Positions 33,949-45,289 of a stretch of 64,000 nucleotides of DNA are shown piece after piece (the first letter of the stretch is position 1; each line of letters starts with the position of its first letter). The notes beneath the pieces are model-generated. The model ran no database searches, was not told the DNA's origin, and was given only the letters and a program-made list of their open reading frames with translations. A program made the position numbers and the translations under genes. The stretch is from the NCBI RefSeq assembly GCF_023702065.1, contig NZ_QFDM01000002.1, forward strand, positions 806,001 to 870,000, in the 5' to 3' direction. Source of the stretch: Methanoculleus oceani (GTDB taxonomy: Archaea; Halobacteriota; Methanomicrobia; Methanomicrobiales; Methanoculleaceae).

Positions 33949-34008
33949 TCACCCGCCGGCCGGAGGAGAGGCGACCGTAAAAAAGAACCGCAGCACCCGC
34001 CCGGACCC

Positions 34009-34287
34009 TCACCGGGGCAGGGGCTGTGACAGGTGCCGCCGGATCGCAGCCTCGAGGTCTTCACGGTGGACGAGCCCTTCCATCCGCTCCCGGACCTCAT
34101 CGCCCTCGAGGACGAGGGTTGTCGGGGTCACCCGGAGGTTATACGTTTTGATATGCTGGGGATTCTTCACGGCATCGATCTCCTCGATTACGATCCCGAG
34201 ATCCTTCTCCACCTGGCGAAGGATCGGGGTCTGCTCCTCACACCCCATGCACCCTTCCTGGTAGAAACTTATCACTTTTACCGCCAT
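34009..34287 (-). CDS. Thioredoxin-like protein
   Basis: A 92-residue protein with an early GCMGCEEQTP redox motif (Cys-Met-Gly-Cys), then VIEEIDAVKNPQHIKTYNLRVTPT with the cis-Pro (VTPT) and a last helix LEAAIRRHL. It is a small thioredoxin/glutaredoxin-fold protein, as is common in methanogens, which use such reductants with ferredoxin- or F420-linked reductases. The partner is not known. It overlaps nothing and stands alone. Confidence 0.88.
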   Translation of the reverse strand: MAVKVISFYQEGCMGCEEQTPILRQVEKDLGIVIEEIDAVKNPQHIKTYNLRVTPTTLVLEGDEVRERMEGLVHREDLEAAIRRHLSQPLPR

Positions 34288-34332
34288 ATACGGCAGAAAG
34301 CGGGGAGACTATAAAAAACTGTGGGGGTGCCG

Positions 34333-35037
34333 TCACCCTGTTATACCGTTGAGCGTGACCCGGGCGCTGCCGTAGCGGTACTTGACGACCAGTGAGTCGT
34401 CGGTCTTGTCGATGACCTCTCCGAAGCGTAGCGGTGAGGTTTCATTGGTCTCATTATCCGGAGAGATATCCGGTGATGTTGTCAATCCTAGCGCGATCAA
34501 GTCGCCTTCCGCTATCTCCGTAGAGTTCAGGTCGAGTCCATCTACATACTCTTCGCTCATATTAATCTCGAGGTCGTTTGCCCCGTAAGAGAAACTGATG
34601 GTTCTCGTCTCGCCGGCCTGCATCCCGACGAGCCCCACGGAGATGGCGTTGGTCTCGAAGCCCAGCAGGCCGAATTCCGAGAAGCCGGTGATCGCGGAAT
34701 ATACAATGGGTATTTGGGCAATGTTCTCCCCCGAGACCTGTCCGCCGACGGGCATCTCCAGGCCTTGGGTCAGGATGATGTAATTGTTCCCCTTCTCGTA
34801 CTCGCTTGCGGCGAGGTTCTGGTCGGTCGTGATGAGAGGACGCCCGTCCTCGCTGAGAATGGTGTAGTCGATCACTGCCGTATTTCCTATCTGGGCGGTC
34901 TGCTTCTTCTCGAACATCGGGGCCAGGTAGGTTCCCACCATGGCAACCGCAACCAGCAGGGCGACACCCACGTAGGCCCATTTCATCCATGGCGCGGTGT
35001 CGTTCTTCGAGGTTTTCTGCTGCGTCTGTTTCATCAC
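34333..35037 (-). CDS. Membrane-anchored FKBP-type peptidyl-prolyl isomerase
   Basis: A 234-residue protein with an N-terminal membrane anchor (WAYVGVALLVAVAMVGTYLA, residues 20-39), then an FKBP/SlyD-like domain outside the cell. Key stretches are NTAVIDYTILSEDGRPLITT, ILTQGLEMPVGGQVSGE and LVGMQAGETRTISF. The end (DDSLVVKYRYGSARVTLNG) is family-typical. It probably helps fold exported proteins. It marks the last typical core gene before the accessory island. Confidence 0.85.
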   Translation of the reverse strand: MMKQTQQKTSKNDTAPWMKWAYVGVALLVAVAMVGTYLAPMFEKKQTAQIGNTAVIDYTILSEDGRPLITTDQNLAASEYEKGNNYIILTQGLEMPVGGQVSGENIAQIPIVYSAITGFSEFGLLGFETNAISVGLVGMQAGETRTISFSYGANDLEINMSEEYVDGLDLNSTEIAEGDLIALGLTTSPDISPDNETNETSPLRFGEVIDKTDDSLVVKYRYGSARVTLNGITG

Positions 35038-35101
35038 GAGTACAATCGCCGTTTGGTGAAATAAATTAGTATTGTTATGGAGAGCGGTAGGGGTCCGAGA
35101 G

Positions 35102-35160
35102 GGTTCTGTTGCATTTGCGGGGGATGAGGGGTATTCAAACGGCGTGTTGCACGCGGGTGA
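35102..35160 (+). repeat. Outer inverted element, left copy
   Basis: This 59-nt stretch starts ggttctgttgc and ends gtgttgcacgcgggtga. The reverse complement of 43805-43863 aligns without gaps: the first 11 nt are identical and 16 of the last 17. In all about 39 of 59 positions agree, with the middle diverged. Each copy also contains two related half motifs (gttgc...cgggtga) about 38 nt apart. Confidence 0.75.
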
Positions 35161-35167
35161 TGAGCGA

Positions 35168-35452
35168 CTATCGCCAACCCTCGTGGATCACTTCGTCCAA
35201 CCTGAGATCAAAGGCGTCATCCTCGACGTGGAACATATCGATCCCGGTCATCCCCATCTTGCGCGTCTCCGGCATCTGCCAGTACAGGTTGTAGACGAGC
35301 TGCCCGAATCGCATGTCAGGGTCCAGCATCCAGATCTCCAGGAGTTTGCTCAAAATAGCATCAATCCTCGCGGGGTCTCTCTCCGGCCCATCCCAGTCCC
35401 CCTCCACCCCACGCACGACCTCTTTCATCACCCGGCGCACCCGTTCATCCAT
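35168..35452 (-). CDS. Small conserved-type protein (94 aa), function unknown
   Basis: A 94-residue protein with a run ERDPARIDAILSKLLEIW followed by DPDMRFGQLVYNLYWQM. Small proteins with this R-D-P-x-R-I ... D-L-R-F-G-Q-L pattern are found in many bacteria and phage-like regions, but I cannot name the family with confidence. Its end is acidic. Codon use is GC-rich, unlike the Fic gene beside it. The start lies only 9 nt from the 22-bp inner inverted repeat, so the repeat occupies its promoter or leader. Confidence 0.65.
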   Translation of the reverse strand: MDERVRRVMKEVVRGVEGDWDGPERDPARIDAILSKLLEIWMLDPDMRFGQLVYNLYWQMPETRKMGMTGIDMFHVEDDAFDLRLDEVIHEGWR

Positions 35453-35461
35453 TAGCTGTGA

Positions 35462-35483
35462 TGTAAAGTGACATCGTGACCCT
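35462..35483 (+). repeat. Inner inverted repeat, left end (22 bp)
   Basis: The sequence from 35462 to 35483 (core gtaaagtgacatcgtgaccc) is the perfect reverse complement of 38443-38464. Weaker similarity continues about 10 nt further outward on both sides. The pair brackets 3,003 bp with Fic, a small membrane protein, an IS481-like transposase and a DUF2080 gene. Confidence 0.8.
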
Positions 35484-35535
35484 TGTAGATCACATTACCA
35501 GGTCCGAATAAGTGTAGCACAACGAGAGCTAAAAA

Positions 35536-36585
35536 TTAAATTGTAATAAATGATTGTAAGGTAAGTTGCCCTGTTTTTTCTGGCTCATCAATGTAAGCTT
35601 TCATGCGGGATCTTAAGATATCCAATCTTTGAATAACAATAATTTCGGCAAAATATTCATTCATTTCAACATATTTTTCATTATTTCCGAGTTTTAACGC
35701 GCGTATGAACTTTTCTTTTACCTCCCCAAGGAACAATAACTTTGGATAGTTGTTTTTTGACAGCATATAATTGAAAATTTCTCTTCCAACCCGACCGTTG
35801 CCATCAGAAAATGGGTGAATCATCTCAAAAAAATAGTGAAACATTACAGCCTCCTCAAATGGATGATATCCCTCTCCAATTTGCTTATAGTAGTAACTGA
35901 TGATTTTACTCAATTCTTTTTTAATTTCTACAGATGGGCACAATAATTGATTACATCCATCGATCCCAATATCATCAGCCCTTCTGAATGTACCAGCAGA
36001 TTGCTCGTCGATATTATGCATTACCAACGCATGAAGTTGTTTAATAAAATCCACAGTGACCTTGCCCTTATATTCGTCCCGGTATTTTTTAACGTTCTTG
36101 AAGTTTTGAACTTCGTTTATTTCCCTTAATTTTTTTGATGTTGGGTTTATACCATATAGCAGCAGGTCTTCAGTCTCTCCAAGCGAAAGTGTATTTCCCT
36201 CGATTGCTGTTGTACCATGGATATACTGGATCTCAAAATATTTTTCATATTGCTCAAGCTCATTGACAGTTAAAGATTCGGTAAAGCGCTTGTATAAATA
36301 TCGGATCTCTTCAATCGCATCAACATAATCTTTTGATAAATATTTCGTTTTATATGCGCCGACTCCCAATTTTCCTGCGGATTTAGCTGCCTTGATCTCA
36401 AGATCGTAAGAGTAGATTTTTCTATAATACTCAATATCATCAAGGCTTGGCGGGGTACTCCCACTGCATAAATACCGTTTGACTTTTGTTTTTCGATTCC
36501 CAACTCTAACATCTCTAACAAGGAAATACCTTGGAGATTTGTTTTTGGGATAATCCACTTCGACACGGTAAGGACGGCGGGCCAT
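35536..36585 (-). CDS. Fic/DOC-family protein (AMPylase-type), class II
   Basis: A 349-residue Fic protein. The active-site motif HPFSDGNGRVGR (H-x-F-x-D/E-G-N-G-R-x-x-R) is complete. The autoinhibitory helix motif TTAIEGNT (T-x-x-x-E-G) lies well before the Fic core, which places it in class II. Fic enzymes usually transfer AMP to Tyr, Ser or Thr of a target protein, and some act as toxins. No separate antitoxin is needed in class II. The gene is strongly AT-rich, with codon use unlike the genome, which points to recent transfer. It lies inside the inner inverted repeat. Confidence 0.93.
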   Translation of the reverse strand: MARRPYRVEVDYPKNKSPRYFLVRDVRVGNRKTKVKRYLCSGSTPPSLDDIEYYRKIYSYDLEIKAAKSAGKLGVGAYKTKYLSKDYVDAIEEIRYLYKRFTESLTVNELEQYEKYFEIQYIHGTTAIEGNTLSLGETEDLLLYGINPTSKKLREINEVQNFKNVKKYRDEYKGKVTVDFIKQLHALVMHNIDEQSAGTFRRADDIGIDGCNQLLCPSVEIKKELSKIISYYYKQIGEGYHPFEEAVMFHYFFEMIHPFSDGNGRVGREIFNYMLSKNNYPKLLFLGEVKEKFIRALKLGNNEKYVEMNEYFAEIIVIQRLDILRSRMKAYIDEPEKTGQLTLQSFITI

Positions 36586-36688
36586 GGTTATGATGTCATT
36601 AGGGGTATGGCAAAAAAAGGTTTCTGTTTATTTTTGCCTCCCCCCTCGACAAAAAATACTGTTGGTTCGAGGGTAATTTTTGCTAATA

Positions 36689-36862
36689 TCAACAAGTGTT
36701 TGGATTGTTGTCAAATATATCCACGACAATTTTGACTGTCAGGAGTATCGCAAAGAGTGCCATAATCAGTCCAAACCACCACAATTCGCCTATGTAGGTG
36801 AGAACTGCATATGCTCCCAAGTAAAGGAACAATGCAAGGACTATCTTCTCTCCAAGATTCAT
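36689..36862 (-). CDS. Small two-helix membrane protein (57 aa)
   Basis: About 57 residues, two hydrophobic helices (IVLALFLYLGAYAVLTYIG and LWWFGLIMALFAILLTVKI) with a short charged start and end. The ATG at 36862 has a good ribosome-binding sequence (aaaggag) 9 nt upstream; an ATG 9 nt earlier has none at proper spacing. No family recognised. It lies in the transferred segment downstream of the IS481-like transposase and upstream of Fic, on the same strand. A membrane toxin or accessory is conceivable but unsupported. Confidence 0.55.
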   Translation of the reverse strand: MNLGEKIVLALFLYLGAYAVLTYIGELWWFGLIMALFAILLTVKIVVDIFDNNPNTC

Positions 36863-37138
36863 GTAAATCATCTCCTTTAGCGGACCTTGATTTGTTCAAT
36901 TCCGCAAGTGTGATCAACACCGATAGCAATGGCTAAATAGAAAGAGCGACAAGGACTGTTTGCAAACCAGTTCAAATCGTCTTTCTTTATTTAGTTGGGG
37001 TGTTCACTTACACCCATTCGCTAAACTCTATGATGTCGTTCTTTTACGCAACACCTCAATGCGTATAACTGGGTACTTCGCCTATATATAGTACCTCCCA
37101 GAAAAGCGTAAATCAGACCGATTATAAACGATCGATCG

Positions 37139-38128
37139 TTAAAAAAGCTTATTTCCTGCGCTCACTTCAGCAAATATTTGGGCAGGAGTCTTATACCCCA
37201 ATTTTTGGATCTCCCTCTCATCGTTGAACCAGTACCTGAACTCCGCAAGGCTCGCTCTCAGAGATTCGGGCTTCATGTATCTCCTGTATGCGATCCACTC
37301 CCTGCGAAGGGTTCCGAACAACCGCTCGATCTTCCCATTCTCCCAAGGGCTGTGCGGCTTGGTTCTGTGGTGATAAACTCCCATATCCTTACAGAACGCT
37401 TCAAACACTGCAGAGGTGAACATTCTCCCATTGTCGGTATAGAGTTGCTTCGGAACTTTCCCGCCATTGTTCTCGACTGCCAGCCGCAGACAGTCAACCG
37501 CACATGCAGAGGTCGCATTATCGTAGTTCATCACGGCCATTACTCTGCGAGTGCAAGCATCGACAATCCCGAAAATATACTGCTTGTAACCCTTGGCGAT
37601 TCTCATCTGCATCATATCGAGGTGCCAGATTTGATCCGGGGTATCAATCTCGATCCGCTGCGCTTCAACCTTGGGCTTCTCGGGCTGGATCTCCTTCATC
37701 ATCTGCGAGACGGTCACATGAGAAACCGTGATCCCATACTCCTTCTCGATCTCATGTGCAATCCTTCGGGAACCGTAGAAGGGATATTTCTCAAGAGTTT
37801 CAGCAACAAGGTACTGATTGAATTGGGTGTCCTTCACTTCGCGGTGAAGGGGCGCGCGGGACTGGTCCTTGAGGGAATCGCCCTCTCTCCACCTGCGCAG
37901 CCACTTCTTAACAACCGATACTGAGCAATTGAGCGCATCCGCTATCTCTTTCTGAGTGTGGCCCGCACTGTGGAGTTCTACCATTTTCTTGCGGAACTCG
38001 ACTGCAAAAGCGTTATCGGTGTTCTTGTAGATGGTATTATAACTGAATAACTCAGGAATGGTGTGCTGGACTGTATTAAAACCAACTACACCGTATGAGG
38101 TTGAGGGGAAAGAGGTTGTTTTAACCAT
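37139..38128 (-). CDS. IS481-like transposase (HTH plus DDE integrase core)
   Basis: About 329 residues. A helix-turn-helix start (GHTQKEIADALNCSVSVVKK) precedes an integrase core with the DDE triad: D in QIWHLDMMQM, D in QLYTDNGRMF, and E in WENGKIERLFGTLRREW. The end (WFNDEREIQKLGYKTPAQIF) is typical of IS481/IS3 relatives. The protein looks intact. I used the ATG at 38128; another in-frame start lies at 38149. I could not find clear terminal inverted repeats directly around this gene. The 22-bp repeats 1.7 kb and 0.3 kb away may be the true ends. Confidence 0.9.
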   Translation of the reverse strand: MVKTTSFPSTSYGVVGFNTVQHTIPELFSYNTIYKNTDNAFAVEFRKKMVELHSAGHTQKEIADALNCSVSVVKKWLRRWREGDSLKDQSRAPLHREVKDTQFNQYLVAETLEKYPFYGSRRIAHEIEKEYGITVSHVTVSQMMKEIQPEKPKVEAQRIEIDTPDQIWHLDMMQMRIAKGYKQYIFGIVDACTRRVMAVMNYDNATSACAVDCLRLAVENNGGKVPKQLYTDNGRMFTSAVFEAFCKDMGVYHHRTKPHSPWENGKIERLFGTLRREWIAYRRYMKPESLRASLAEFRYWFNDEREIQKLGYKTPAQIFAEVSAGNKLF

Positions 38129-38134
38129 GTATAA

Positions 38135-38227
38135 ACATTGTATTAACATATATTTATTACTTCCGCCAAAGTTCTAACATTGAGGTAACTTTTCAACAAC
38201 TTAGTTAGTAATTATTATATACAATGT
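38135..38227. promoter_or_regulatory. Divergent promoter region of transposase and DUF2080 gene
   Basis: A very AT-rich region between two divergent genes. Near its ends are acattgtat (38135-38143) and its inverse atacaatgt (38219-38227), a 9-bp inverted pair. The pair could be a binding site or reflect matching TATA-like elements. A further acaatgt-like copy (gcaatgt) follows at about 38232. Confidence 0.35.
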
Positions 38228-38244
38228 ATGTGCAATGTTATACC

Positions 38245-38397
38245 ATGGTTGGACAGATGGAGGTGCATACCGAAGCCTACCAGGTGATTGATAAAACAGT
38301 CAAACCGATGGGCAACTCTGGTGGTGTACTGGTCCCGAAAAAGTGGATAGGTAAGAAGGTGAAGATCCTCCTCCTTGAAGAAGCCGAGGAAGAGTGA
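38245..38397 (+). CDS. DUF2080 transposase-associated protein
   Basis: A 50-residue protein read from the ATG at 38245. It contains TVKPMGNSGGVLVPKKWIGK, the AbrB-like pattern (G-N-S-x-x-V-x-V-P-K-x-W-I-G-K) of the DUF2080 family, and an acidic end (LLEEAEEE). This family accompanies transposases in archaea, to my knowledge, and may regulate them. It is transcribed away from the IS481-like transposase. Confidence 0.8.
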   Translation: MVGQMEVHTEAYQVIDKTVKPMGNSGGVLVPKKWIGKKVKILLLEEAEEE

Positions 38398-38442
38398 TCG
38401 GAAAGATAGGGTGCGAGAGAGTGGTAATTTTTTGTTTGGTGT

Positions 38443-38464
38443 AGGGTCACGATGTCACTTTACA
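38443..38464 (+). repeat. Inner inverted repeat, right end (22 bp)
   Basis: This is the perfect reverse complement of 35462-35483 (core gggtcacgatgtcacttta). It lies 45 nt after the DUF2080 stop. Directly beyond it the sequence shares only scattered identity with the other side. No target duplication is obvious. Confidence 0.8.
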
Positions 38465-38646
38465 GGACAATTAGCCATACCCCTTTGCAATACACTGTAA
38501 GTAACGCATGATGCCTACATCAAGGGTATGCAGAACATAAAAGTGCCTGTGCATGGGGGAGAAGAATGTACTAGGGTACAAGGAGAAGAGGGGGCCGATT
38601 GTTTGCTTCAAAAGTTATATTGCGGGGAAAGAACTCGCCCATAAGT

Positions 38647-38898
38647 ATGACAATCCATGGTGATGTCTTTGAAGCAGCAAAATATCTTGCTGCGCGGAGT
38701 GTAGACGGAAGCTTCCGGCCGAAAGAGGTAAAATCTCTCCTAGTTGCAACAGGAAAAGAGCATAATCGGAGATCGGTTCAAGGAGAGATCCAACGGGGCT
38801 GTACAAATGGTTCAAAGTGTTGGGGTACGGTGTATGCCCGCTATGAACGCATCAAGCGGGGGGTCTACAAACTGTTTGAACCTGGAAAGAAGAATTAG
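38647..38898 (+). CDS. Small winged-helix-like protein (DUF7669-like)
   Basis: An 83-residue protein starting MTIHGDVFEAAKYLAARS and continuing GSFRPKEVKSLLVATGKE. Its end is RYERIKRGVYKLFEPG. The pattern (aA..La..g.Ft..eV, then a basic helix and R.krGvY.L) resembles small HTH domains often found attached to or near restriction enzymes. A longer frame from a TTG at 38599 exists, but the ATG fits better. Its stop overlaps that of the convergent SWIM transposase by 4 nt. It may belong to that transposon or be a remnant of a regulator. Confidence 0.55.
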   Translation: MTIHGDVFEAAKYLAARSVDGSFRPKEVKSLLVATGKEHNRRSVQGEIQRGCTNGSKCWGTVYARYERIKRGVYKLFEPGKKN

Positions 38899-40079
38899 TT
38901 TTTCACCGCCAGCTCGATCATCGTCATCCAGCGGTTGCCGGAGAGGTTGATCGGGATCCGGGCCATTTGTGCCGGGGTTAACCCCTCGATCCCCTGATGG
39001 GGCCGGATGTAATTGTAGTAGACCTGCATCCCGGCGCAGAACTGGTTTGCCCCGATCTGGTCCGGCAGGCTCCGCATCACCTTCGTCCGCTCCCGGAAGG
39101 TGCCGTTCAGCCGCTCCACGATGTTGTTGTTCGGCTTAGTCTCGAAGTCCTTCAGCCGGAAGTGGGGGTTCTGGATGAATGCGGACTTATCGAAGAACAC
39201 GTCCTTCACCGCGTACTGGTACGCCTGAAGGCCGTCCGTCACCACAAGGTCGGGCCGCCGTGCCGCCGCAGCCTTCGCCTGCTGTAAGGGCTTCTTGGCG
39301 TCGGCAACGTAGCGGTCCTTCGTCACCTGACAGGCGAGGAGGTAGCGGGTCTTGGCGTCCATGACGTTCCAGATCCACTCGTAGTACCGCTTCTCCCCCT
39401 CTTTCTTGATGAAGACCGTCATCTCGTCCGAGTGCCAGATCTTGCCGACATCGGCCTTGTGCTTCTCCACGTACTTCCCGAGAAGGTTCAGGTACTTCTT
39501 GATCCAGCGCATCGGGGTTGTCTGCGCGACCTCGATATTGTGGAACTGCTTCAGGTGGTCGGCAATCTTCCGCAGGGACACCCCCTTGAAGTAGAGATCG
39601 AGGGCGAGGGTGATGGTCTTCGGGTCGTGCTTCATGCTCTTGAACCCCCGGTCAGGGGTAAACCGGTGGCCGCAGTCCTTACAGGTGTATCGCTGGATCT
39701 TGCCGAACCGGGTTGTGCGGGAGCCGTCCCGGACCACGTTGAGGCTCTGACATGCGGGGCAGAGCACTTCGGGGCGGGGGGATTCGATCTCCCGGTGCGC
39801 GGTCTCCTGCTCGATGTCGGCCTTCAGCTTCAGGGAGAACTCGACCGCGTAGATGTGTTTGCAGATCTGCTTCCGGTAGACATGATCCGGGCAGGTGCAG
39901 GACCACACGAACTGCTTGGTGCCGTAGCCCTTCGGCCACCGGCGCTCAACCCGGTAGTAGCCGTCAGGCTTCGCCTGCGACCGGACGTACCAAACGTTCT
40001 TCTTGATCGCTTTGATGTTTTCCGGTTCGGAGAGTATCGCAAACCCCTTGAGTTCCCGCACGTTGGTTAACTGCTGCAT
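38895..40079 (-). CDS. DDE transposase with SWIM zinc finger and zinc ribbon (IS6-like)
   Basis: A 394-residue transposase. A SWIM finger (CTCPDHVYRKQICKH) is followed by a zinc ribbon (LCPACQSLNVVRDGSRT then YTCKDCGHRFTP) and an IS6-like DDE core: D in KIWHSDEMTVF, D in DLVVTDGLQAY, E in NNNIVERLNGTFRER. The end PHQGIEGLTPAQMARI is standard. It appears intact and is GC-rich, unlike Fic. ATG at 40079 has an aggtga sequence upstream; TTG 15 nt earlier is unlikely. Two small regulator-like genes are divergent from it and may move with it. Confidence 0.9.
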   Translation of the reverse strand: MQQLTNVRELKGFAILSEPENIKAIKKNVWYVRSQAKPDGYYRVERRWPKGYGTKQFVWSCTCPDHVYRKQICKHIYAVEFSLKLKADIEQETAHREIESPRPEVLCPACQSLNVVRDGSRTTRFGKIQRYTCKDCGHRFTPDRGFKSMKHDPKTITLALDLYFKGVSLRKIADHLKQFHNIEVAQTTPMRWIKKYLNLLGKYVEKHKADVGKIWHSDEMTVFIKKEGEKRYYEWIWNVMDAKTRYLLACQVTKDRYVADAKKPLQQAKAAAARRPDLVVTDGLQAYQYAVKDVFFDKSAFIQNPHFRLKDFETKPNNNIVERLNGTFRERTKVMRSLPDQIGANQFCAGMQVYYNYIRPHQGIEGLTPAQMARIPINLSGNRWMTMIELAVKN

Positions 40080-40175
40080 CTCGATCACCTGCAAGGTTTT
40101 CTTAAGATTACCTTGTAACTGATCCTTTAAATAACTTACTACATTTTCTTAAGAATATCTATCACATGCGAAACC

Positions 40176-40185
40176 CTATATAGTA
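40176..40185 (+). promoter_or_regulatory. TATA box for the two small genes
   Basis: The stretch ctatatagta lies 26-35 nt upstream of the ATG at 40211. This would place the start of transcription at or just before the start codon, so the message may be leaderless. Two copies of ttttcttaaga (near 40098 and 40144) lie upstream and may be regulator sites between the two divergent units. Confidence 0.55.
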
Positions 40186-40210
40186 TAATCGTTAGAATAT
40201 CTAGTACGGA

Positions 40211-40492
40211 ATGAAGAAAGATTCTGACGATGAGATCGAGGAACTGCAAGAACTCCCGGAAGTGGACTATTCCACGATCCCCCCTGAGATCGAGGGCGTT
40301 GTCGGCAAGCAACCCCATATCATCGAGAAGAAGGTAAAACTCACCTGGGACGGCAAGCAGTTCTCATTCCGCATCCCGACCGAGATCGCGGAAGAGATGA
40401 AGATCACAAAGGAACATCAAGTGCTGTTCCGGCTGAAGAAGCCGGTTCCGGGCTCGAATGATGAGCCTGAACTGTCGATCACACTGCTATGA
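40211..40492 (+). CDS. Small AbrB-like protein (93 aa)
   Basis: A 93-residue acidic-to-basic protein. The first 40 residues are acidic and low in structure; the second half (KLTWDGKQFSFRIPTEIAEEM then KEHQVLFRLKK) looks like an AbrB/SpoVT swapped-hairpin domain, with the F-x-I/V-P turn. It overlaps the following winged-helix gene by 4 nt. I do not know the family. Together they resemble a transposon-borne regulator pair divergent from the SWIM transposase. Confidence 0.6.
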   Translation: MKKDSDDEIEELQELPEVDYSTIPPEIEGVVGKQPHIIEKKVKLTWDGKQFSFRIPTEIAEEMKITKEHQVLFRLKKPVPGSNDEPELSITLL

Positions 40493-40689
40493 CCCAACTG
40501 AGCCCCGAGGAGAAACGGATCGTCACTGTGCTATACTATGCCCACAAACCTCTCTCAACAAAGGCCATAGCCGAACGCTCAGAGATGGCGTGGCAGACCG
40601 CGAAGAAGTACCTCGAACGGTTGTACGGGAAGAAACTGCTTCGCAGGGGGAAGTACGGGAAGTCGATCTACTGGTGGCTGAGGGTATGA
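40489..40689 (+). CDS. Small winged-helix protein (66 aa)
   Basis: A 66-residue winged helix: LSPEEKRIVTVLYYAHKPLS, then TKAIAERSEMAWQTAKKYLE as the recognition helix, and a wing RRGKYGKSIYWWL. It is a DNA-binding protein by pattern, comparable with small archaeal MarR/PhoU-like HTH proteins. It overlaps the AbrB-like gene by 4 nt and ends before the restriction genes by about 130 nt. Confidence 0.7.
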   Translation: MTQLSPEEKRIVTVLYYAHKPLSTKAIAERSEMAWQTAKKYLERLYGKKLLRRGKYGKSIYWWLRV

Positions 40690-40817
40690 AGATGGATCCG
40701 ACTGAAAGAGGATCTGTGAACCAGATATGAGAAATCCCGGCAGCCATTGAAATCTAAATCAGAAAAAACGTCAAATTATGGGAGTATTGGGCAATTAGGG
40801 GCCACGGAGACATCAAC

Positions 40818-42782
40818 ATGGTTAGGAAAGATAAGACTGATCGGGCTATATTCAGACGTTTGGAGAGTCTAAACTATTCTGGGCATTGGGAGGATTACAC
40901 CAATAATAACTATGTAACTGAGATATTATCACATGCATCAAAAAGCAAAACGGGTAAAGATGGATATCCCGATGGTATTTACGTTAATGAGATAAAACAA
41001 CTCTTAATCCTTCTTGAGATTAAGCAAGATACATCAAAGCATATTTCTGAAGATGGGGAATCGGAACCCGAAAAATACGCAGTTGATGGCATAAAACACT
41101 ATCTCAGTTTCTTCTTAAAAGAAAACCTAGAGAACAGCATAGTCCAAGACTACTTTAGGGTGTGGAAAATCGTCGGTATTGCGGTCTCCGGGAATATTGA
41201 TGATGAGTATAACCATAGGATTAGTACGTTTGCCATAATTGATCAGAAGATTGTCGATAAAAATATCCTAGAACTTTTAGATGAAGAAGATTATCTCAAC
41301 CTGTTTGAAACAATTAATGAAGAGGAAATTATCAGTAAAATTTCGACTTCATCAAAGAAAATTAATAACCTACTCCGGAACGTTGACTCCCAAAAAAGAC
41401 CGGTGTTATTATCTGCCTTGATGATATGTCTATTCGAGAAAAAAGGAATTACAAACGATTTCCGAAATAACTACGTTAACTTTAACCCCAAAACAATAGC
41501 TATCAACGTTCCATCGACAGTAGAGCTCGTTTTATCCAAGGAGGGGGTTCCTGATGATAAGATTAAACTTCTGGTGAATGAATTATCTCCTCTTTGGGGG
41601 GATATTGACTTGTCTCAAACAGACATCTTGAAGGATATCTTAAATGAACTCCGTGATCAGGTTATCCCTCTATTTGATAACAAGAGTAATTACGACATTA
41701 TTGGAAAATTCTACGAGGAATTTTTAAGGTATGCGGGCGTTGCCAATGTCAAAAGAGGTATTGTACTAACTCCAAAACATATCACAAGCCTGTTTACTGA
41801 ACTAGTTCCTATCAAGACAAACGATGTATTCTTAGATCCAGCCTGTGGAACCGGTGCATTCCTAATTGCGGGAATGAATAAACTTGTTGAGACCATCAGC
41901 TCATCCTCGCTGCCAAATAAAGAAAGAAGGATACAAGACATAAAATCAACAAAACTTATCGGGTTTGAGAAGAATCCAACCATGTATTCTCTTGCAATCT
42001 CAAATATGCTGTTTAGAGGCGATGGGAAATCTCAAATTTTTTATTGCGATTACTTTAACAAGGAAGCCGAAACAGAATTGAAATCCCTTGCTGAAAAAGG
42101 GATCAGGCCAACAATTGGATTCATCAACCCCCCTTATGGGGGCAAAGATAACGAAACCAATCCAACAAAAAAAGAGATACAATTCTTGGCCCGAATGTTA
42201 GATCATGTTTCCAGATATGGGATTATAATCGCTCCATTATCAACGTATTTTAAAGAGAATGCCACTAGAAATGCCATTTTAAAGAAGCATACATTGAAAT
42301 ATGTCATAAACATGCCCCGTGATTTATTCCTACCGAACGCCGCATCGAATACCGCAATTGCAGTATTTGAAACCAATACCCCCCAAGGAGATAAAGATGT
42401 TGTATTTTATGATTTAAAGGACGATGGGTTGGTTCTCTCCAAATCTAAGGGAAGAACAGATGTTTACAATAAGTGGCATAGAATCAAAGACGATATGCTT
42501 GAAAGAATCAACAATCCAGATAAGTACCAAGATGGACTTGTACTGGTAAAAACAAAGATTACGGATAATGATGAATGGCTAATTCAGGCTCATGCAAAAA
42601 CAGACTATTCGCATTTATCTGAGAATAGTTTCGTCCAAGCCATCAAAAGTTACATGGTATTCAATGCGAAACGAGAGATGAATCTCTTGGAGAAGGATAT
42701 TGACGAAATAACGCTGTTAGAAATCGTTGCAGAGTTTTACTCGAACTCTTCGGATCCGACCCAAAATGAGGGAGCGGGATAA
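40818..42782 (+). CDS. BcgI-like restriction-modification protein (nuclease fused to N6-adenine methylase)
   Basis: A 654-residue protein. The first about 200 residues contain a PD-(D/E)xK-like nuclease site: P51-D52 in DGYPDGIYVNE and E67-I-K69 in ILLEIKQ. The rest is an N6-adenine methylase of the HsdM/type I class: SAM motif LDPACGTGAFLIAG near residue 340 and catalytic NPPYGG near 437. Nuclease and methylase in one chain with a separate specificity subunit is the layout of BcgI (subunit A about 72 kDa, B about 39 kDa from memory), and the sizes match. Such enzymes cut on both sides of a bipartite site. The gene is AT-rich, so probably acquired. Alternative: a type I HsdM with a degenerate N-terminal domain. 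Confidence 0.85.
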   Translation: MVRKDKTDRAIFRRLESLNYSGHWEDYTNNNYVTEILSHASKSKTGKDGYPDGIYVNEIKQLLILLEIKQDTSKHISEDGESEPEKYAVDGIKHYLSFFLKENLENSIVQDYFRVWKIVGIAVSGNIDDEYNHRISTFAIIDQKIVDKNILELLDEEDYLNLFETINEEEIISKISTSSKKINNLLRNVDSQKRPVLLSALMICLFEKKGITNDFRNNYVNFNPKTIAINVPSTVELVLSKEGVPDDKIKLLVNELSPLWGDIDLSQTDILKDILNELRDQVIPLFDNKSNYDIIGKFYEEFLRYAGVANVKRGIVLTPKHITSLFTELVPIKTNDVFLDPACGTGAFLIAGMNKLVETISSSSLPNKERRIQDIKSTKLIGFEKNPTMYSLAISNMLFRGDGKSQIFYCDYFNKEAETELKSLAEKGIRPTIGFINPPYGGKDNETNPTKKEIQFLARMLDHVSRYGIIIAPLSTYFKENATRNAILKKHTLKYVINMPRDLFLPNAASNTAIAVFETNTPQGDKDVVFYDLKDDGLVLSKSKGRTDVYNKWHRIKDDMLERINNPDKYQDGLVLVKTKITDNDEWLIQAHAKTDYSHLSENSFVQAIKSYMVFNAKREMNLLEKDIDEITLLEIVAEFYSNSSDPTQNEGAG

Positions 42783-43778
42783 ATGTCCTCCTCAGAAATG
42801 GAACAGTTCCTCTTTAGTGACATCTTTACCTGTAGTAGAGGGAAACGGCTAATTGAAGAAGACCAAATCGCAGGTGACATTGCTTACATATCATCTACAA
42901 AATACAACAACGGCATTAGTGGTTACATCACCCCGCCGGACGTCATGACACACTACGAGAATAAAATAACGCTATCAAATAGTGGCAGTGTTGGTTATGC
43001 TTTTTATCACGATTACGAATTTGTTGCTTCAGACCATGTGACAGTCATTGGAATTAAAGAACCCTCTGTTTTTCTGACACGGGAAATTGCCCTATACCTC
43101 AAACCCGTCTTTGAATTCATGCGGTACAAGTATAATTTTGGAAGGGAGATAAGTGATGAACGACTTAAAAAAGAGAGGGTTCTCCTCCCTATTGATGCAC
43201 AGGGTAACCCCGATTGGACATTGATGCAGACGTACATTGGGTCTCTCAGCAGATCCATCAAATGGGATAGCATTCAATGTGTAAGAAAAGAACCCAAGTT
43301 GTACGTTTCAGATTGGCATCTGTTCCGTATGGATGAGATCTTTGATTTTTACAAAGGAAAGAGACTGACCAAAGAAAATATGACTCCAGGAGATACAAAT
43401 TTTATCGGAGCAATCTCAACAGATAACGGTATCCGCCAACGTATAGATGAAGATCCTCTCTATTTAGGGAATTGTATTACTGTTAATTATAATGGGAGCG
43501 TTGGGGAAGCATTTTACCAAAAGGATCCTTTTTGGGCCTCAGATGACGTTAATGTACTTTGTTTAAAAAGAGATCTGGCAGAACTTAATGTTTATTTAGC
43601 CATGTTCTTGATCACCATCATCAAACAAAATAAACATGCGTTTGATTTTGGGCGAAAATGGAATCTGCCAAAGATGAAATCAACATTAATTGGCCTTCCA
43701 GTGGCACCAGACGGAACTCCGGACTGGGCATTTATGGAAGAGTACATTAAGTCACTCGCTTACAGTGATAAATTGTAA
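42783..43778 (+). CDS. Specificity (S) subunit of the BcgI-like system, two target domains
   Basis: A 331-residue S subunit that begins directly after the stop of the methylase gene. It holds two target-recognition domains with the same plan: FTCSRGKRLIEEDQIAGD and SSTKYNNGISGYI in the first; FDFYKGKRLTKENMTPGD and AISTDNGIRQRI in the second. Each ends with a linker helix after LLPIDAQGNPDWTLMQTYI or LPVAPDGTPDWAFMEEYI. Two half-sites imply a bipartite target, with one domain per half. The repeated ending G-x-P-D-W-x-x-M-x-x-Y is seen in BcgI-type S chains. It ends the island's coding part. Confidence 0.88.
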   Translation: MSSSEMEQFLFSDIFTCSRGKRLIEEDQIAGDIAYISSTKYNNGISGYITPPDVMTHYENKITLSNSGSVGYAFYHDYEFVASDHVTVIGIKEPSVFLTREIALYLKPVFEFMRYKYNFGREISDERLKKERVLLPIDAQGNPDWTLMQTYIGSLSRSIKWDSIQCVRKEPKLYVSDWHLFRMDEIFDFYKGKRLTKENMTPGDTNFIGAISTDNGIRQRIDEDPLYLGNCITVNYNGSVGEAFYQKDPFWASDDVNVLCLKRDLAELNVYLAMFLITIIKQNKHAFDFGRKWNLPKMKSTLIGLPVAPDGTPDWAFMEEYIKSLAYSDKL

Positions 43779-43804
43779 TTCTTTTTTCGCAGAAACATTT
43801 CCTG

Positions 43805-43863
43805 TCACCCGCGCGCAACACCTCACCCCAGATGAGGTGATCACCCGTCAACGCAACAGAACC
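43805..43863 (-). repeat. Outer inverted element, right copy
   Basis: Read on the minus strand this 59-nt stretch starts ggttctgttgc and ends gtgttgcgcgcgggtga, like the left copy at 35102-35160. Within it lie the palindrome ggtgatcacc and a hairpin cctca/tgagg. It begins 26 nt after the stop of the specificity gene and ends 9 nt before the TATA box of Hsp20. Confidence 0.75.
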
Positions 43864-43871
43864 TCCGAGAG

Positions 43872-43928
43872 ATAAATTTATATCGCGATAACACTACCTT
43901 AAGGTTAGCCCAGGGCGACCTGCTCGCC
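43872..43928 (+). promoter_or_regulatory. Hsp20 promoter and leader hairpin
   Basis: A strong TATA box (ataaatttata, 43872-43882) is followed by a leader of about 55 nt. The leader contains ccttaagg and a 5-bp stem (ggcga/tcgcc, 43914-43928). The start codon at 43962 has aggag upstream. A heat-regulated promoter is expected; no known heat-shock operator is recognised with certainty. Confidence 0.6.
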
Positions 43929-43961
43929 TCGGGGCAATTCCAGTAGATAGGAGCGATTACA

Positions 43962-44432
43962 ATGGCAAGAACTGAACGAGGGCCGTATCGCACGATATGG
44001 CAGGACTTTGACGACCTCATGGCCGAGATGGAGAGCAGGTTCCAGTCCATGCTCGGGGGAATCGGCGCACGGGGAGAAGAGGTCAGGGGCCGGGTCGTCC
44101 CGGCGGTTCGTGATTTCCGCGTGGATGTCCGGGACCACGAGGACGAGGTGATCGTCGTTGCCGACCTCCCCGGCGTCGAGAAAGAGAACGTCGCCGTCCG
44201 GCTCGTCGATCCCCAGCACCTGGAGATCACGAGCAGGCGGGCGGGCGAGACCGGGGAGGAGACCAGGGATTTCTTCATGCAGGAGCGTATCTACGGCCAG
44301 ATGAGCCGCACGGTGCTGCTTCCTGCCGAGGTGACCGAGGAGAATTCCGCCGCTTCGTTTAAGAACGGTGTTCTCGAGGTCCGGCTGAAGAAAGCGCCGA
44401 CCGAGACCGGGACCACAATCCCCATCGAATAA
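43962..44432 (+). CDS. hsp20: Small heat shock protein Hsp20 (alpha-crystallin family)
   Basis: A 156-residue small heat shock protein. The alpha-crystallin domain has RVDVRDHEDEVIVVADLPGVEKENV and ASFKNGVLEVRLKK, with the G-V-L signature. The C-terminal I-P-I motif (TTIPIE) needed for oligomerisation is present. It binds unfolding proteins in the cytoplasm without ATP. The next gene follows about 40 nt later. Confidence 0.95.
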   Translation: MARTERGPYRTIWQDFDDLMAEMESRFQSMLGGIGARGEEVRGRVVPAVRDFRVDVRDHEDEVIVVADLPGVEKENVAVRLVDPQHLEITSRRAGETGEETRDFFMQERIYGQMSRTVLLPAEVTEENSAASFKNGVLEVRLKKAPTETGTTIPIE

Positions 44433-44473
44433 CCCTATTTTTCATGCCGATAGCTATTTCAACCGAATAATTC

Positions 44474-45289
44474 ATGTCGAGCCAGCGTGACACTATCATG
44501 ATGGATAAAAAGAAGGTCAAGGATTACATGACCTACGACGTCGTCACCGTCGACGCAAACGGAACGGTCCGGGACGTCATCGAAGCAATAAAAAATACGC
44601 ACCACGACGGCTTCCCGGTCGTGGAGAACTCAAAGGAGGTGGTGGGCTACATCTCGGCGCGGGACCTCCTCTTCGCCCATCCGTCGACACCGATAGAGCA
44701 GGTGATGTCCCGCCACCTCATCGTTGCCGACCCCGACATGAGCGTGAACGATGCGGCCCGCGTCATCTTCCGCTCCGGCATTCAGAAACTCCCGGTCGTC
44801 AACGATAAAAACGAACTCATCGGGATCATGTCGAACGCCGACGTCATCCGGTCCCAGATCGAGCACGTCTCGCCGGAGAAGGTCTTCAAGTTTATCGAGA
44901 CCCTGAAAAAACTCTACGGTGTAGAACCGACCCTCCGACGGGGCTCGGTGCCGATCAACGACCTCCTGCCCACCCAGTCGAAGATCTACGAGGACGAGCT
45001 GGAGGGGAGGATGTACGAGATCAAGAAGGGGCTCGCCGAACCCCTGATCGTGGTCCGGCGGCCCGGCCGCTGGATCCTGGTGGACGGGCACCACCGGGCG
45101 ATCGCGGCAAAACGGCTCGGTATCACGAACCTCGACGCCTACATCATCGAGGTCCGGGAGAATATAGAGTTAGGGATGGAGCGGACGGCCCGGACGCTGA
45201 ATCTCAGCACGCTCGACGACATCAAGGTGCTCGATTACGCCCGCCACCCCCTCGTCGCGCTGACGCACCGGCTCGTGCGGCACGGGTGA
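44474..45289 (+). CDS. CBS-pair plus ParB-like domain protein
   Basis: A 271-residue protein. Two CBS domains cover about residues 14-130 (VKDYMTYDVVTVDANGTV, HHDGFPVVENSKEVVGYIS, FRSGIQKLPVVNDKNELIG). A ParB/sulfiredoxin-like domain follows (EGRMYEIKKGLAEPLIVV then WILVDGHHRAIAAKRLG, with the D-G-H-H-R motif). CBS pairs bind adenine nucleotides, so the protein may couple energy state to a ParB-like activity. ParB-like folds can bind ATP or CTP. The exact job is unknown. The start at 44474 may be preceded by an AUG-independent leader; MMDKKKVKDYM 27 nt later is an alternative. Confidence 0.8.
   Translation: MSSQRDTIMMDKKKVKDYMTYDVVTVDANGTVRDVIEAIKNTHHDGFPVVENSKEVVGYISARDLLFAHPSTPIEQVMSRHLIVADPDMSVNDAARVIFRSGIQKLPVVNDKNELIGIMSNADVIRSQIEHVSPEKVFKFIETLKKLYGVEPTLRRGSVPINDLLPTQSKIYEDELEGRMYEIKKGLAEPLIVVRRPGRWILVDGHHRAIAAKRLGITNLDAYIIEVRENIELGMERTARTLNLSTLDDIKVLDYARHPLVALTHRLVRHG

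Follow-up and report, generated by a model that had tools for sequence, protein, structure and literature searches.

An 8-bp target duplication is usual for the IS6 family of insertion sequences (ISs). The excerpted text of PMC7986276 describes GG and cTGTt features at the ends of this family, and in excerpts of PMC7986276 and PMC6807381 the long bacterial members, namely ISfinder clades h and i, possess a zinc finger, to which clade i adds a further N-terminal extension, and ISDsp3 is an IS6 member with one passenger gene. The term SWIM is absent from PMC6807381. A 2019 survey of thaumarchaeal elements listed, in the portion consulted, passenger-carrying composite DNA transposons as not detected in archaea (PMC6563490). 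Here we describe a 64,000-nt stretch of the archaeon Methanoculleus oceani (contig NZ_QFDM01000002.1, positions 806,001 to 870,000; hereafter the window), in which an IS6-type unit transposon of 8762 bp carries a SWIM-finger transposase gene, small divergent genes and cargo. We consider it probable that this element represents archaeal unit transposons with IS6-type ends, each moved by its own SWIM transposase, in which the divergent partner gene forms part of an exchangeable repressor-operator cassette.

Borders of the element, its transposase and its relatives

The whole transposon (window 35102..43863) was delimited by its ends, its target duplication and empty sites in congeners. The 8-bp sequence TCCGAGAG was found on either side (35094..35101 and 43864..43871), a target duplication of the length typical of the IS6 family, and the left terminal inverted repeat GGTTCTGTTGCATTTGCGGG (35102..35121, forward strand) was identical at 17 of 20 positions to the right one, GGTTCTGTTGCGTTGACGGG (43844..43863, reverse strand). 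Both ends display GGTTCTGTTGC, with the GG and cTGTt features of IS6-family inverted repeats. A second, subterminal copy of the TGTTGC...CGGG motif, presumably also functional, lies 38 nt inward at the left end (35145..35164, forward strand), and another lies at the right end (43801..43820, reverse strand). When window positions 34000-44500 were searched against 35 genomes of the genus (including the one that contains the window), the flanks at about 35094 and about 43862 were found to adjoin directly in relatives such as G032; in the empty sites, from 18 congener loci, the target region was present once, in diverged form, immediately upstream of an Hsp20-type gene (named by eye). In the window itself, the element is inserted right before this gene's promoter region (43864-43960) and may affect the expression of the gene.

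A search for inverted repeats near the transposase gene (900 nt upstream, 450 nt downstream) had revealed no shared ends, because most ends lie past the cargo, and it was the empty site of the congeners that supplied them. The compact single-gene layout of the IS6 family is not seen in this 8762-bp, cargo-bearing element, the size and content of which rule out a reading of the locus as a small three-gene IS. Its passengers lie between one pair of ends together with one transposase, as in a transporter IS (tIS) or unit transposon, and a nested IS481-type element is also enclosed; two IS copies flanking the passengers, as in a composite transposon, were not found, the transposase region being single copy in the genome. 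The original prediction, made from the letters of the window, had read the genes in a manner that still stands, but had missed the element ends, the cargo, the target duplication and the nesting.

The transposase gene (38895..40094, reverse strand) encodes 399 aa from a TTG codon, with an ATG 15 nt further in. The predicted combination of a SWIM finger, an N-terminal zinc ribbon and an IS6-like DDE enzyme was confirmed by family models and by invariant ligands: Pfam matched DDE_Tnp_IS240 (5.8e-13) and SWIM (PF04434; 2.3e-5, 24.2 bits against a cut-off of 19.6), together with an InsA-type zinc ribbon just under the cut-off (9.6e-6), and the NCBIfam model of the IS1/IS1595 zinc domain scored 34.7 (cut-off, 28). 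The protein has the CxC...CxH pattern of SWIM fingers, and the SWIM ligands C66/C68/C78/H80, the ribbon ligands C112/C115/C138/C141 and the triad D223/D287/E327 were all invariant in an alignment of 18 sequences. An AlphaFold model (mean pLDDT, 79) matched ISCth4 best in a fold search, followed by MuA, TnsB and IstA, and on this model the matches appear to reflect the general DDE fold and no closer family. Related transposases without the SWIM finger were also observed in L142 and L143, in elements of 5.3 kb and 3.2 kb with GATTCTGTTAA ends, the partner gene of L142 being ribbon-helix-helix-like. In L175 and L176 the transposase N-terminus is longer, with a seemingly doubled SWIM region.

Relatives were collected from genome contigs (28 loci), from viral contigs (1 locus) and by whole-genome searches, which yielded matches in 18 of 392 genomes of the phylum and also took in the 24 genomes or records from which loci were already known; of the whole-genome matches, short fragments and repeat records of one genome were excluded before counting. 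The sample comprised 57 transposase loci and the window, 58 in total, with flanks of about 9 kb at most. A plasmid tblastn search returned 28 records, all under 60% identity (25-28% among the matches listed) and none covering 80% of the query. Ends accompanied by an 8/8 target duplication delimited 32 of the 58 loci, with element lengths of 1970-8762 bp (median about 3.5 kb). Thirty of these were obtained by a seeded end search, for which a control with mismatched flanks gave 4/685, and L158 and L161, the ends of which are less like the rest, were delimited without a seed by 20/20 repeats (3/344 in the corresponding control). Two further seedless candidates, L175 (18/20, 9.0 kb) and L172 (15/20), were seen and not counted. 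The end motif is often doubled: as counted from the listed copies, at 34 of 60 ends the best second copy was found 27-29 or 37-39 nt further in, these offsets, one helical turn apart, having been picked after the list was seen, and strong second copies (at least 11/15) occurred at 8/60 ends as compared with 1/60 in a control stretch. One locus (L154:7227-16173) was found to hold two different SWIM elements in tandem, with the same 8-bp target sequence TGCCGCGA.

The divergent partner gene and the intergenic DNA

Upstream of the transposase gene in the window, two small genes point away from it, as predicted, namely an AbrB/MazE-like gene of 93 codons (40211..40492, forward strand) and a winged-helix gene of 66 codons (40489..40689, forward strand), which overlap by 4 nt. 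The likewise predicted pair of ttttcttaaga motifs was located between them and the transposase (40097..40107 and 40144..40154, forward strand). These putative operators, 47 nt apart, constitute a 14-nt direct repeat (one mismatch allowed) that was reached in 0 of 60 shuffles, and between the two copies sits a TTTAAATA box (40126-40133), which, by the usual promoter geometry, could be the TATA element of the transposase gene. The leaderless appearance of the promoter of the small genes is a reading by eye. With regard to the AbrB label, Pfam returned nothing for the window protein at E 0.1, and the label rests on the 35% identical homologue in L145, which matched MazE/AbrB (PF04014) just under the cut-off at 6.1e-5; the window protein was aligned to the AbrB/MazE fold by hhalign with a probability of 23%, and its weak fold model contains strands and one helix. 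The second protein matched DUF7342 under the cut-off (6.2e-7) and winged-helix families more weakly.

Across the family, 46 of the 58 loci have a recognised small divergent gene on the upstream side of the transposase. Classified by eye and then checked against Pfam, these partners were of the AbrB/MazE (13), DUF2080-like (11), ribbon-helix-helix (14), zinc-ribbon (6) and coiled-coil (2) kinds, the last without Pfam support; so classified, the slot is filled by at least five unrelated kinds. L154b has a partner of unrecognised kind, outside the 46. The distance from partner start to transposase match had a median of 111 nt among partners within 400 nt. In the L138-L141 clade, counted among the DUF2080-like loci, an extra conserved gene (192-233 aa) separates the partner from the transposase, and the partner is situated about 750-970 nt upstream. 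Other DNA nearby is conserved in this clade as well, and no element ends were found there. In L135 (8321-8740), the zinc-ribbon partner carries a second, fused domain, which is probably the STAS-like DUF4325 that was seen once in the partner set.

The partner was shown to lie within the element. A recognised one was present in 27 of the 30 delimited SWIM elements, and in all 29 delimited elements having a small partner (L154b and the SWIM-less L142 counted in) it lay inside the ends; ends between transposase and small genes occurred in 0/29, in agreement with the anticipated placement of the ends outside the small genes. The three genes of the window recurred together in L145 (the same place as L018), a Methanoregula element of which the AbrB-like, winged-helix and transposase proteins are 35%, 40% and 61% identical to those of the window, but only this once among the 58 loci, a winged-helix gene behind an AbrB/MazE partner being limited to these two. 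The predicted association of small genes with the transposase hence holds in that they belong to the element, but not as a fixed AbrB/HTH pair, given a slot with at least five unrelated kinds and with none seen in 11 loci.

Exchange of partners was apparent from the transposase phylogeny, on which the partner kind changed at least 16 times among 36 labelled tips; shuffled labels gave a mean of 19.5 changes, and 10 of 300 shuffles gave 16 or fewer, so that the observed number is little below the shuffled one. L148 (on a very long branch in a first tree), L180, L181 and L173 were dropped from this tree, and L138-L141 were left unlabelled. The sister transposases L130 and L131 of one genome stand beside a ribbon-helix-helix and a DUF2080 partner, respectively, and the closely related transposases of L128, L129 and L146 are likewise beside unrelated partner kinds.

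The intergenic regions were richer in repeats than shuffled sequence, with direct repeats in 15/43 and inverted repeats in 14/43 regions at ≤0.05, the shuffles keeping dinucleotides where a path was found and being plain otherwise. The regions were then compared by their best shared 14-mers between classes of locus pairs, with 5000 permutations. Pairs with similar partners and dissimilar transposases had an intergenic mean of 11.89 (28 pairs) versus 11.20 for partner-dissimilar pairs (594 pairs), a difference attained in 0/5000 permutations, and pairs with similar transposases and different partners had a mean of 11.15 (99 pairs; 3552/5000). This main test omitted the broken or partial transposases of L148, L180, L136, L182 and L178 and kept L137 and L179, which have many stops; an inclusive version, in which frame-broken transposases count as dissimilar, gave the same picture from more pairs (partner-similar 12.11, 44 pairs, 0/5000; transposase-similar 11.18, 105 pairs). 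For L158, a manually placed partner start was wrong in the repeat and rank-correlation analyses, and the protein was used without its first residue in the pair-class tests. The ends behaved in the opposite manner: among 27 delimited elements, they were alike for similar transposases (53 pairs, 0/5000) and not for pairs similar in the partner only (13 pairs, 2881/5000). By these comparisons the intergenic DNA follows the partner and the ends follow the transposase, which amounts to a double dissociation. Near-identical operator-like repeats were also noted where the partner subtype is the same, namely AGGTACCTAA in L136 and L162 (similar in L168) and TATACCAATAGATA in L158 and L161.

Proposed mechanism and its alternatives

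From sequence we obtained the ends, the target duplication, the empty site, the partner inside the ends, its exchange and the double dissociation, and the mechanism proposed here is as follows. The SWIM/zinc-ribbon DDE transposase would recognise the TGTTGC...CGGG motif, frequently present twice, at each end, generate the 8-bp target duplications and presumably mobilise the element itself. The product of the divergent gene would be a DNA-binding protein acting on the repeats of the shared intergenic region, where it would repress the transposase gene and probably also its own, repression rather than activation being suggested by the layout. Since the ends track the transposase and the intergenic DNA tracks the partner, binding of the ends by the former and of the divergent promoter by the latter is the simplest reading. 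Repressor and operator would together be one cassette, frequently replaced by unrelated cassettes of the AbrB/MazE, DUF2080, ribbon-helix-helix, zinc-ribbon or coiled-coil kind, and the remainder of the element would be cargo, often restriction-modification genes. The control in trans by small proteins that had been predicted thus finds an indication in the intergenic DNA tracking the partner protein, and the control of transposition itself remains a deduction.

Several observations weigh against this proposal. The evidence is sequence-based throughout. At 109 bits, the transposase stays below the cut-off of the curated NCBIfam IS6 model (125); 26 of the 58 loci, some on short contigs, were not delimited; and no partner was seen in 11, of which L143, L160 and L171 are delimited and L150, L170, L172, L173, L175, L176, L177 and L181 are not. 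For the ribbon-helix-helix and coiled-coil kinds, the assignment is weak or was made by eye, and a Foldseek search with the poor model of the AbrB-like partner gave no AbrB match (best E, 1.9). In the 27 delimited elements alone, the intergenic effect was reached in 15/5000 permutations and rested on 13 pairs, and the plain rank correlation of intergenic similarity was weak with partner (0.07) and transposase (0.08) alike, although it is the contrast of pair classes and not the rank correlation that separates the two effects. Similar intergenic DNA could partly have come along with the partner gene. Finally, AbrB/MazE proteins also serve as antitoxins, and antitoxins often bind their own promoters; DUF2080-type and RHH_6-type proteins were among the antitoxins validated in a 2023 study, according to its excerpted text (PMC10440598).

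It appears unlikely that the small protein is a transposition co-factor, acting at the ends or in target choice, and not a promoter repressor. The frequency of recognised partners beside the transposase and the DNA-binding accessory proteins of other transposons would fit such a role, but the ends tracked the transposase and not the partner (0 against 2881 of 5000) and the intergenic DNA did the opposite, and unrelated partner kinds stand beside transposases as close as L130/L131 or L128/L129/L146. Quite unlikely, too, is a role of the small genes in stabilising the element, whether as orphan antitoxins or as what is left of former toxin-antitoxin pairs. Besides the validated antitoxins mentioned above, the match of 12 of 44 partners to PF04014 (MazE) speaks for this, as do a Panacea-like cargo gene (under the cut-off), a RelE-like frame (by eye) and the Fic gene of the nested element; the partner is, however, usually a lone divergent gene, and the second gene in the window and L145 encodes a winged helix. 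The covariation of intergenic DNA with the partner counts less here, for a repressor-antitoxin would produce it as well, and the two roles are not exclusive.

The remaining explanations concern the association itself. DNA carried between two IS copies is common among IS6 elements (PMC7986276, in excerpt), and the SWIM transposase, single copy in this genome, might likewise be a passenger of an island moved in trans by another IS6-type enzyme. This is very improbable in view of the inverted repeats and 8-bp duplications around 32 loci and of the covariation of the ends with the transposase; moreover, a search of its own genome with the transposase (E 1e-3) had the nested IS481-like enzyme as its sole other match, at which threshold a distant IS6 enzyme could be missed. 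That the small genes are chance cargo without a regulatory link, as the great variability of the cargo might suggest, is hardly credible when they stand on the same side and divergent in 46 of 58 loci, mostly so near to the transposase, and when the intergenic DNA covaries with them.

Extending the repressor-operator proposal, we tentatively suggest, at less than even confidence, that these are archaea-wide defence-carrying DDE transposons in which repeated swaps of repressor and operator (at least five kinds, several of them also antitoxins) let co-resident elements escape each other's repression. Similar partners were found in 0 of 23 co-resident pairs versus 65 of 1012 other pairs, the direction of which fits, the number being too small to tell.

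Cargo, the nested element and known systems

In the window, the cargo behind the small genes consists of an N6-adenine methyltransferase gene of the HsdM/type IIG-like kind (40818..42782, forward strand; N6_Mtase 1.1e-26, PADLOC type IIG 3.7e-48) and an HsdS-like specificity subunit gene (42783..43778, forward strand; Methylase_S 2.1e-32); a small DUF7669-like gene (38599..38898, forward strand; 4.5e-4, under the cut-off) adjoins the transposase gene on its other side. Among the relatives, DNA methylases were identified by Pfam in L128, L129, L134, L144, L146 (two), L155 and L174, and with that of the window they make up 9 of the 33 Pfam-scanned cargo proteins (of 41 with at least 200 aa). Those of L134, L144 and L146 are accompanied by restriction enzymes of the EcoRII (just under the cut-off), MvaI/BcnI and Bpu10I types; L145 carries an HNH protein, and the cargo proteins of other elements had no Pfam match. 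Among the matches listed, which represent 25 of 39 PADLOC families outside the elements and 25 of 122 inside, methylase models matched up to 6 of the 41 cargo proteins versus at most 1 of 110 outside, and other models (IetA/TRIP13 ATPases, mad3, mad8) matched up to 2/110 outside, the 110 being random reading frames drawn from 235 of at least 200 aa, minus those of L154. As annotated, defence cargo appears frequent and not universal. A neighbouring DUF1828 and DUF6978 pair, possibly an undescribed defence or toxin-antitoxin pair, was also observed in the cargo of two distant elements (L128:11094-12423 and L153:7558-8841).

The nested IS481-type element (35457..38469, 3.0 kb) is bounded by inverted repeats identical at 24 of 26 positions and by a 6-bp target duplication, ATTAGC (35451-35456 and 38470-38475). 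It contains an IS481-like transposase gene (37139..38149, reverse strand), the product of which does not pass the curated NCBIfam IS481 model (186 bits; cut-off, 224), a divergent DUF2080 gene (38224..38397, forward strand; 2e-10), which substantiates its prediction beside this transposase, and a Fic gene as passenger (35536..36585, reverse strand; 3.9e-19). The element is single copy in the genome, and the family could not be enlarged past it and L185, the one IS481-like relative found (62% identical), in which a DUF2080 gene is again divergent from the transposase gene and the two are enclosed by similar inverted repeats. A small partner beside such a transposase, as in the original prediction, is seen in both elements, and the plan of transposase, divergent small gene and other genes seems, from these two examples, to occur in an unrelated transposase family as well.

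With these elements, archaea gain passenger-carrying DNA transposons, the class given as not detected there in the excerpted 2019 survey (PMC6563490), and a concrete route for restriction-modification genes between archaea. The swapped small proteins and their putative operators make transposon self-control and within-genome competition directly testable, and a role is suggested for the orphan archaeal AbrB, DUF2080, ribbon-helix-helix and zinc-ribbon genes that adjoin transposases. A literature search limited to open-licence papers found no description of this element family.

Among known systems, the NCBIfam "DUF2080 family transposase-associated protein" covers the small gene of the nested element, and partners of several SWIM elements belong to DUF2080 by Pfam; the family is known as an annotation label, and in the excerpted PMC10440598 one protein of this type is also a validated antitoxin. 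In the immunity regions of lambdoid phages, a repressor gene and its operators are likewise exchanged as a cassette among related elements; the present elements are transposons, the partner proteins have unrelated folds, and immunity between elements is here a reading. The arrangement of one transposase and passengers between inverted repeats is that of tIS and unit transposons. With archaeal IS6 elements, those of the window type share archaeal hosts, an IS6-assigned DDE domain and related ends, but the former are described with short transposases in the excerpts of PMC7986276 and PMC6807381. The long IS6/IS26 members have in common with them the GG...cTGTt ends, the IS6-type DDE domain and an N-terminal zinc finger, whereas the elements described here are archaeal and 2.0-8.8 kb long, carry several cargo genes and an exchangeable divergent gene, have end motifs that are often doubled and encode a transposase with an invariant SWIM finger.

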